DNA of 64,000 nucleotides from Candidatus Aramenus sp. CH1 (lineage in GTDB: Archaea > Thermoproteota > Thermoprotei_A > Sulfolobales > Sulfolobaceae): contig JALBWU010000001.1 in the NCBI GenBank assembly GCA_022678445.1, positions 62,001 through 126,000 on the forward strand. Direction: 5' to 3'. The translations under genes and the position numbers were made by a program. This document shows, one piece after another, positions 58,271-59,581 of the stretch (positions within the stretch are counted from its first letter, which is position 1; every line of letters begins with the position of its first letter). The notes beneath the pieces were generated by a model. The model was not told the DNA's origin, searched no databases, and saw nothing but the letters and a program-made list of their open reading frames with translations.

Positions 58271-58289
58271 TCCCTTTTGGCATGCATCG

Positions 58290-58374
58290 TGCGGGGAGTG
58301 GGACTTGAACCCACGCAGGCCTACGCCAGTGGAGCCTCAGTCCACCCCCTTTGGCCTAGCTCGGGCATCCCCGC
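58290..58374 (-). tRNA. tRNA-Leu (anticodon GAG)
   Basis: Eighty-five bases fold as a class II tRNA: acceptor GCGGGGA pairs with TCCCCGC and discriminator A, D arm with GG, anticodon stem around loop CTGAGGC with anticodon GAG at 58338-58336 (Leu), long variable arm, and T arm GTGGGTTCAAGTCCCAC. No intron and no encoded CCA. A TATA-like sequence lies upstream at about 58408-58399. The TnpB-like relic ends 20 bases downstream of the 3' end. Confidence 0.95.
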
Positions 58375-58434: not shown

Positions 58435-58443
58435 CTTTTTAAG
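58435..58443 (+). promoter_or_regulatory. TATA box of the aRF1 gene
   Basis: CTTTTTAAG predicts transcription start near 58465, nine bases before ATG 58474. The spacing fits the short leaders seen throughout the window and does not fit initiation at TTG 58511. Confidence 0.55.
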
Positions 58444-58473
58444 TGGAGACTCACTAATTTCTTCTGATTAGGG

Positions 58474-59581
58474 ATGAGTCTTTGACAAGTACGTCCTAAG
58501 TAAGCAGGAGTTGAAGACCCTGTTAAGGGAACTCAAGAAGTGGTCTGCCCCCGCCACAGTCCTTCTCTCGCTCTATATACCTCCTGGTAGGCCGATCTCA
58601 GACGTAGTGAACATGTTGAGGCAAGAGGCGTCGATAGCCCAGAACATCAAGCTAAAGAGGACTAGGGACGCTGTTGAGGCTGCAATATCTGGCGCAATAG
58701 ACAGGCTGATGAGCTTCTCAAAGGTACCGGACAACGGCCTAGTCCTCTTCTGCGGTGAGAACTTCGACACGGAGGAGTACAAGTGCTACGTCTTCTCTCC
58801 TCCAGAAAAGGTGACTGTGTACTTCTACAGGACGGACAAGTACTTCCACACTGAGTTCCTAGAGGACATGACCGAGGAGAACGAGGTCTACGGGCTCATA
58901 ATAGTGGAGAGGGACCAGGCGACCATAGGCATCCTAAGGGGTTCTAGGATACTCGTCCTGGAGGAGTTCGAGGGATTCGTTCCAGGCAAACACATGATGG
59001 GAGGTCAGTCGCAACGAAGAATAGATAGGATCATCGAGGAGATGTACCACAACTTCCTCAAGGAAGTAGGGGAGAAGGTGAACCAGCACTTTGTCCCCCT
59101 CCTTGAAGAGGGCAAGCTTAAGGGAATCCTGCTGGGAGGGCCAGGCTACGCCAAGAAGGACTTCTTCGACGGCGACTACATGGACTATAGGCTTAAGAAA
59201 CTTGTGCTCGAGCCCCTAGTAGATCTCGGAGACCAGGGAGAGGCAGGACTGAGGGAGATGGTGATGAGGATGAAGGATGTGCTGAAGTCCCAGAAGTACG
59301 TAGAAGTTCAGAACTTGATGGACGAGCTCAAGTACCACTTGGCAAAGGACGACGGCCTCATAGTCTACGGCCTCGACTACATAAAGAAGGCGCTCGAGAT
59401 GGGAGCTGTTGACAGCCTAATAGTGTACGACGAGGAAAACCTTGAACTGCAGAAGGTTATCCAAGAGGCTGAAAAGTACGGCACCAAGGTGTACGTGGTG
59501 GGGGACGAGTTACCAGAGGCGGAGTGGATAAAAAAGACGTTCGGAGGGGCTGTTGGAAAGCTGAGGTTCAAGGTAGACTAG
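58474..59581 (+). CDS. prf1: Archaeal peptide chain release factor aRF1, with putative +1 frameshift at its 5' end
   Basis: The long frame is a full aRF1/eRF1: [21 protein letters not shown] and the stop-codon-reading [15 protein letters not shown] region, [14 protein letters not shown], then [10 protein letters not shown] with the GGQ motif for peptidyl hydrolysis, and domain 3 ending VGKLRFKVD. It recognises all three stops and releases the chain. The long frame has no ATG or GTG before TTG 58511, although it is open and coding-like back to 58478 ([11 protein letters not shown], matching the N-terminal helix position in Sulfolobus aRF1). The promoter points at ATG 58474, which reads ATG AGT CTT TGA; a +1 slip on CTT enters the long frame. 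Start TTG 58511 is the alternative. Overlaps the PRTase end by four bases. Confidence 0.92.
58480..58486 (+). promoter_or_regulatory. CTTTGAC, candidate programmed +1 frameshift site
   Basis: In frame with ATG 58474 this reads CTT then stop TGA followed by C; slipping one base gives TTT GAC and continues into aRF1. The heptamer equals the CUU UGA C slip site of bacterial prfB. Just before it, TGAG (58475-58478) gives a four-base match to the anti-Shine-Dalgarno. Confidence 0.4.

Follow-up and report, generated by a model that had tools for sequence, protein, structure and literature searches.

How is a release factor made when the start codon of its gene leads, three codons on, into a stop codon? 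This question is raised by prf1, the gene of the archaeal class-I release factor aRF1, in a 64,000-nucleotide (nt) stretch of the genome of Candidatus Aramenus sp. CH1 (contig JALBWU010000001.1, positions 62,001 to 126,000; hereafter, the window). Direct reading of window positions 58466–58489 gave GATTAGGG ATG AGT CTT TGA CAAG. In the frame of the ATG (58474–58476; hereafter the 0 frame), codon 4 is the stop TGA (58483–58485), and the aRF1 frame lies at +1 to it, opening at GTC 58478 directly behind an in-frame TGA (58475–58477) and remaining open to 59578. The original prediction had read ATG AGT CTT TGA from ATG 58474 with aRF1 in the +1 frame, which proved exact in sequence and translation; its further statement that no in-frame ATG or GTG precedes TTG 58511 was confirmed in the window, where this TTG is the earliest ATG, GTG or TTG of the aRF1 frame. 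The site thus has an early stop in a release-factor gene with the remainder in the +1 frame, and a CTT-stop-C string (CTT TGA C), as in bacterial prfB-type genes. The features of the locus are as follows.

58436–58443, plus strand: TATA-like box TTTTTAAG, the putative promoter of the aRF1 transcript, recognized by sequence.
58466–58473, plus strand: predicted 5′ leader GATTAGGG of 8 nt, placed by the GATYAGGG block and the TATA spacing, with a predicted transcription start at about 58466; its AGG has the spacing that TGAGG or GGTGA has in other families.
58474–58485, plus strand: 0-frame mini-open reading frame (mini-ORF) ATG AGT CTT TGA (Met-Ser-Leu-stop), an arrangement kept in Sulfolobaceae.
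58480–58486, plus strand: putative +1 slip site CTT TGA C, at which the P-site pairing would move from CUU to UUU and the next codon would be GAC (58484–58486).
58478–59581, plus strand: aRF1 (prf1) frame, with its stop at 59579–59581 and a predicted product of about 368 amino acids, assigned by TIGR03676 match and translation.
58511–58513, plus strand: TTG, the first in-frame potential start in the window genome, a Leu codon not conserved as a start.
58289–58374, minus strand: tRNA-Leu(GAG), found by ARAGORN and transcribed divergently from aRF1, about 100 bp ahead of it; this tRNA reads the slip codon CUU.

When the window was scanned for further cases of a start, NTT and a stop preceding a +1 frame at least 300 codons long, two other strings came up, both of which failed a filter for the lack of an in-frame start; the aRF1 site fails the same filter through TTG 58511.

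The window protein was identified as aRF1 by its match to NCBIfam TIGR03676, with a score of 443 bits against a cut-off of 235, and the solved chains closest to it were aRF1 (3agk and 3vmf) and S. acidocaldarius aRF1 (8hku). The NIK(S) and GGQ motifs of class-I release factors were present, N56, K58 and G175-G176 being invariant and Q177 nearly so. No homology to bacterial RF1 or RF2 was observed among the family and structure matches, every one of which belonged to the aRF1/eRF1/pelota superfamily. Further, aRF1 was the sole full-length class-I factor found, the remaining matches being weak, C-terminal and pelota-like. In archaea, aRF1 is the single omnipotent class-I factor and reads all three stop codons (PMC3521657).

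We searched 31 whole Sulfolobaceae genomes (family f1) and read the 5′ ends of their aRF1 genes. The 0-frame start was ATG AGT CTT TGA in 29/31 genomes and ATG AGT CTT TAG in the other two (G001 and G004), and the base after the stop was C in most of them. No ordinary in-frame start was found ahead of the conserved aRF1 helix in any of the 31, nor did any of these relatives carry an in-frame ATG at the site. The original prediction had called for a search of prf1 5′ regions for a conserved ATG-x-CTTTGAC arrangement; the break is conserved in all 31 and recurs in the majority of the order's remaining families. A one-base change of frame is the usual sign of an indel, and could be attributed to a sequencing error, to a pseudogene, or to transcriptional slippage restoring the frame. 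The identical break in 31/31 separately assembled Sulfolobaceae genomes, and a break in 103 genomes of the order, excluded a sequencing error. A pseudogene is hard to reconcile with aRF1 being the only full-length class-I factor found, and the T runs in most genomes are just 3 long, which is short for transcriptional slippage. The chance that any of these accounts for the break is practically negligible.

The codons at the junction were examined across the 31 Sulfolobaceae aRF1 genes, with Met and Trp positions excluded. Of 117 codons for invariant residues, only GTC and TTT of the slip site were identical in 31/31 genomes; elsewhere in these genes GTC is the rarest Val codon (110/874) and TTT makes up 199/474 of the Phe codons. 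Under a +1 shift this fixation would have no protein-level reason, because the shifted ribosome would read AUG AGU CUU and then GAC, and never GTC or TTT. On the strength of this test, chance was excluded as the cause of the break.

It might be argued that the upstream ATG is irrelevant and that translation begins directly in the aRF1 frame, at a codon that is non-canonical or lies further downstream (GTC 58478, UUU or TTG 58511). Rare non-AUG starts are known in prokaryotes, TTG 58511 exists in the window genome, and a Shine-Dalgarno (SD)-like element stands 7–8 nt before the slip codon, a distance typical of signals for initiation. However, in the sister species Ca. Aramenus sulfurataquae (L003), whose protein is 98% identical, the place of the TTG is taken by TTA and the first in-frame start is GTG at codon 44, and TTG was found at the equivalent place in just 10/31 Sulfolobaceae; TTG 58511 was rejected as the true start on this lack of conservation. 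The next in-frame starts, at codons 41–46 in several genomes, would remove the invariant W22...IPPGRP block. A shared non-AUG start at GTC was likewise rejected, since the codon before TTT in the aRF1 frame differs among the families of the order (GTC, GTT, GTA, CTA, GCA, ATA, GCT, GGA, CCA and others). A start in the aRF1 frame would also leave the kept 0-frame ATG or GTG and the perfectly kept stop unexplained, and we regard it as very improbable.

An A+T-rich TATA-like box is centred mostly 35–36 nt before the ATG in the 31 Sulfolobaceae, and a conserved GATYAGGG block precedes the ATG. The spacing of the box together with this block suggests that the prf1 mRNA begins about 8 nt before the ATG in this family.

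In the GTDB order Sulfolobales as a whole, a start followed by NTT and a stop, with aRF1 in the +1 frame, was found in 103 genomes: 31/31 in f1, 22/28 in f2, 15/15 in f3, 4/4 in f4, 3/4 in f5, 26/26 in f10, 1/3 in f11 and 1/1 in f13. Family names are approximate, f1 standing for Sulfolobaceae, f6 for Acidilobaceae (with Aeropyrum) and f8 for Pyrodictiaceae. The classifier demanded NTT plus a stop, so that genomes that had lost the stop would be scored as having no break; there were none such in f1, f3, f4 and f10. The slip codon was CTT in f1 and part of f10, ATT in f2, f4, f5, f13 and nearly all of f3, TTT in most of f10, and GTT in two genomes. As the stop, 29 genomes of f1 and one of f3 had TGA, two of f3 had TAA and the rest of the 103 had TAG; it was followed by C or T in 100/103. 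The first +1-frame residue was Ser in 71 genomes, Asp in 27, Glu in 3 and Asn in 2, each of whose codons forms a stop with the preceding T. The nearest start was separated from the stop by three sense codons in 79 genomes, four in 22 and five in two. The arrangement of the DNA is thus conserved, and a stop persists even where one stop codon has given way to another. That stop and residue vary together over all three stop codons is the strongest sign of selection keeping the 0-frame stop. Two f2 genomes (G076 and G060; L062 and L068) show the same layout with a TAT slip codon, the 0 frame reading ATG AAG TAT TAG C with no in-frame start upstream.

The short 0-frame ORF ends at the junction, as would be expected if the AUG mini-ORF were a terminating upstream ORF and aRF1 were made by termination and reinitiation near the stop, without a frameshift. 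No start for reinitiation is conserved, however, the nearest in-frame ATG, GTG or TTG in the family lying about 10–45 codons downstream, and the fixed NTT ahead of the stop and the fixed T after it would be unexplained. We consider such reinitiation to have only a faint chance of being correct.

We propose, with a probability of roughly 0.84, that expression of prf1 depends on programmed +1 ribosomal frameshifting, through which aRF1 holds down its own production, in the manner of prfB but in a non-homologous factor. Ribosomes would start at AUG 58474 on a near-leaderless mRNA and read AUG AGU CUU, upon which UGA would enter the A site while peptidyl-tRNA-Leu(GAG) occupies CUU. If aRF1 is plentiful, termination would be fast and the tripeptide Met-Ser-Leu would be released; if it is scarce, the pause would be longer, and the P-site tRNA could slip from CUU to the overlapping UUU, so that GAC would be read and the slipped ribosomes would make full-length aRF1 beginning MSLDKYVLSK.... 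As in E. coli prfB, tRNA-Leu(GAG) would move from CUU to UUU by forming G-U, A-U and G-U pairs, and tRNA-Phe on a UUU slip codon would re-pair fully. The slip, its one-base direction and its dependence on aRF1 are what we infer from the arrangement. If the proposal is correct, ATGAGTCTTTGAC fused to a +1 frame would be expected to yield product in Sulfolobus. The gene reads ATGAGTCTTTGACGAATATGCTTTAAATAAG in the Sulfolobaceae species L025, L026 and L028, and the predicted trans-frame N-terminal peptide is (acetyl-)SLDEYALNK, the same peptide being predicted for L027. A tRNA-Leu(GAG) gene lies near aRF1 in 17/31 Sulfolobaceae and seems to contain an intron in three; the proximity may reflect common descent or a functional connection.

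The feedback of aRF1 on its own synthesis is likely, because aRF1 reads all three stops, which fits their free exchange. Any stop could act as the sensor, because aRF1 is the omnipotent single class-I factor. The original prediction had proposed sensing of UGA in particular; the stop alternates among UGA, UAG and UAA and yet stays a stop, as expected for sensing by such a factor. The slip might instead be real but occur at a set ratio, independent of the aRF1 level. The same sequence evidence would serve for this, feedback being invisible to sequence alone. However, a stop in the A site is kept in every break-bearing lineage and changes just to other stops read by aRF1, whereas a pause at a rare sense codon would suffice for a fixed ratio, and the parallel with prfB and the eRF1-like genes of giant viruses argues for feedback (PMC12421855, PMC3521657). 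Unregulated frameshifting is therefore, in our judgment, improbable. The reading of the locus as a prfB-like arrangement, as originally made, is supported by the conservation of the break in the order, the absence of an in-frame ATG in the family and the lack of conservation of the TTG.

Several observations weigh against frameshifting with feedback. For the AUU and GUU slip codons a move to UUU brings a first-position mismatch and thus poor re-pairing, and the efficiency of a slip on them is uncertain. In three f2 genomes (G041, G130 and G090; L087, L088 and L179), ATT TAG is retained and an in-frame GTG lies upstream, possibly an escape from frameshifting, and in G069 and G071, from break-bearing families, the 0-frame start is unclear. 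In-frame start codons also occur further upstream in some genomes of f3 and f10, where they probably precede the transcription start. In Sulfolobaceae the SD-like stimulator is weak, mostly AGG alone at 7–8 nt from the slip codon, beside the TGAG just before the site.

In most genomes of f2, f3, f4, f10 and f11, the SD-like element is TGAGG or GGTGA with GG 7–8 nt before the slip codon. The tail of the 16S rRNA, GGATCACCTCA, was taken from a pattern search of 11 other Sulfolobaceae genomes, the 16S of the window genome not having been found. Exact matches to the anti-SD of at least 5 nt within 22 nt were present at 58/103 sites, against a mean of 25 (maximum 38) for shuffled sequences. Many genomes of f3 and f10 also carry GGTG some 9 nt ahead of the ATG, where a signal for initiation at that codon would be expected. 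TGAG just before the site had been put forward originally as a match to the anti-SD; TGAG is indeed present in the window, but the match is not conserved across the order, in which AGG, TGAGG and GGTGA are better kept, and pairing of TGAG with the 16S tail as a general stimulator was unsupported across the order.

Ordinary in-frame ATG, GTG or TTG starts were found in f6, f7, f8 and f9, with a single exception, the f8 genome G047. In this Pyrodictiaceae-like genome (L045), no in-frame start occurs before aRF1 codon 12, and the gene is preceded by a 0-frame GTG ... CAA GGT TGA C. The Aeropyrum-like G055 has a TTG start that agrees with the numbering of structure 3agk. A single-gene tree of aRF1, for which other orders supplied the root, placed the branching of f7 and f6 ahead of that of the other families, with moderate deep support, and the presence of the break required a minimum of seven changes of state on this tree. 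One early gain of the +1 break followed by several losses would be a natural reading of the tree.

In the sampled rest of the phylum, aRF1 starts were ordinary except in family f31, in which the aRF1 5′ end was TGGAATAA in 22/22 genomes with a readable N-terminal region (L335–L353, L355, L356 and L362). The site reads (A/C/T)TG GAA TAA, with aRF1 in the −1 (or +2) frame; the 0-frame starts are mostly at a near-leaderless ATG or GTG, and many f31 genomes have no in-frame aRF1 start. This break could be served by a −1 shift at G GAA UAA or by reinitiation at the overlapping AUA, a less secure assignment. The odds are about even that the release factor generally controls its own synthesis by a frame break across a large part of Thermoproteota and that such control evolved repeatedly, in a +1 form in Sulfolobales (NTT-stop, probably already present in a deep ancestor, with later losses in several families) and in a separate form in f31.

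The closest known system is bacterial prfB, encoding RF2, which shares the release-factor gene, the +1 shift at CTT TGA C near the start, a stop read by the factor itself and an upstream SD-like element; in most Sulfolobaceae the heptamer is identical or differs in its last base alone. The differences are that aRF1 is not homologous to RF2, that the order uses all three stops, that ATT, TTT or GTT frequently serves as the slip codon in families other than Sulfolobaceae, that the stop, codon 26 in E. coli, is mostly codon 4 here, and that the SD-like element, weak in Sulfolobaceae, lies 7–8 nt from the slip codon rather than the 3 nt of prfB (PMC12421855). Mimivirus R726 and Megavirus mg280 (CUU UAG C and CUU UAA C) have a frameshift at a site of this kind in an eRF1/aRF1-family gene, but are viral and also need stop-codon readthrough. 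Such autoregulation has been stated to be absent from the archaeal and eukaryotic homologues (Jeudy et al. 2012, PMC3521657). Programmed frameshifting in Sulfolobaceae is represented by fucA1 of Saccharolobus solfataricus, which differs in its −1 shift, its A-rich site, its product (alpha-L-fucosidase) and its occurrence in two strains of one species, and which was the only demonstrated archaeal programmed frameshift in a 2021 review of archaeal recoding (PMC8211752). The archaeal magnesium chelatase of Methanocaldococcus and Methanococcus is a predicted conserved archaeal frameshift, but at −1, at an A-run, and in another gene with another purpose (PMC3711429). The archaeal passages of a 2016 review (PMC5009743) and of the GeneTack screen (PMC3711429) do not mention an archaeal release factor, and a 2025 survey of bacterial prfB does not mention archaea (PMC12421855). 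In the open-licence literature on aRF1 and frameshifting, outside which a further report may exist, no archaeal case was found beyond fucA1 and magnesium chelatase.

If our proposal is correct, programmed +1 frameshifting would, as far as that literature shows, be seen in prf1 for the first time among cellular archaeal genes. Frameshift-based autoregulation of a release factor would likewise be new beyond bacteria and giant viruses, and would occur in a protein that has no relation to RF2. Sulfolobaceae aRF1 annotations made from an in-frame start would carry the wrong N-terminus, and an archaeal system would be at hand for studies of frameshifting on eukaryote-like ribosomes. Nearly the same heptamer, CTT TGA C, would have come into use convergently in two domains, and should the wider distribution in Thermoproteota also hold, self-sensing recoding would, together with bacterial prfB and the giant viruses, be a solution reached repeatedly by release factors that belong to unrelated protein families.
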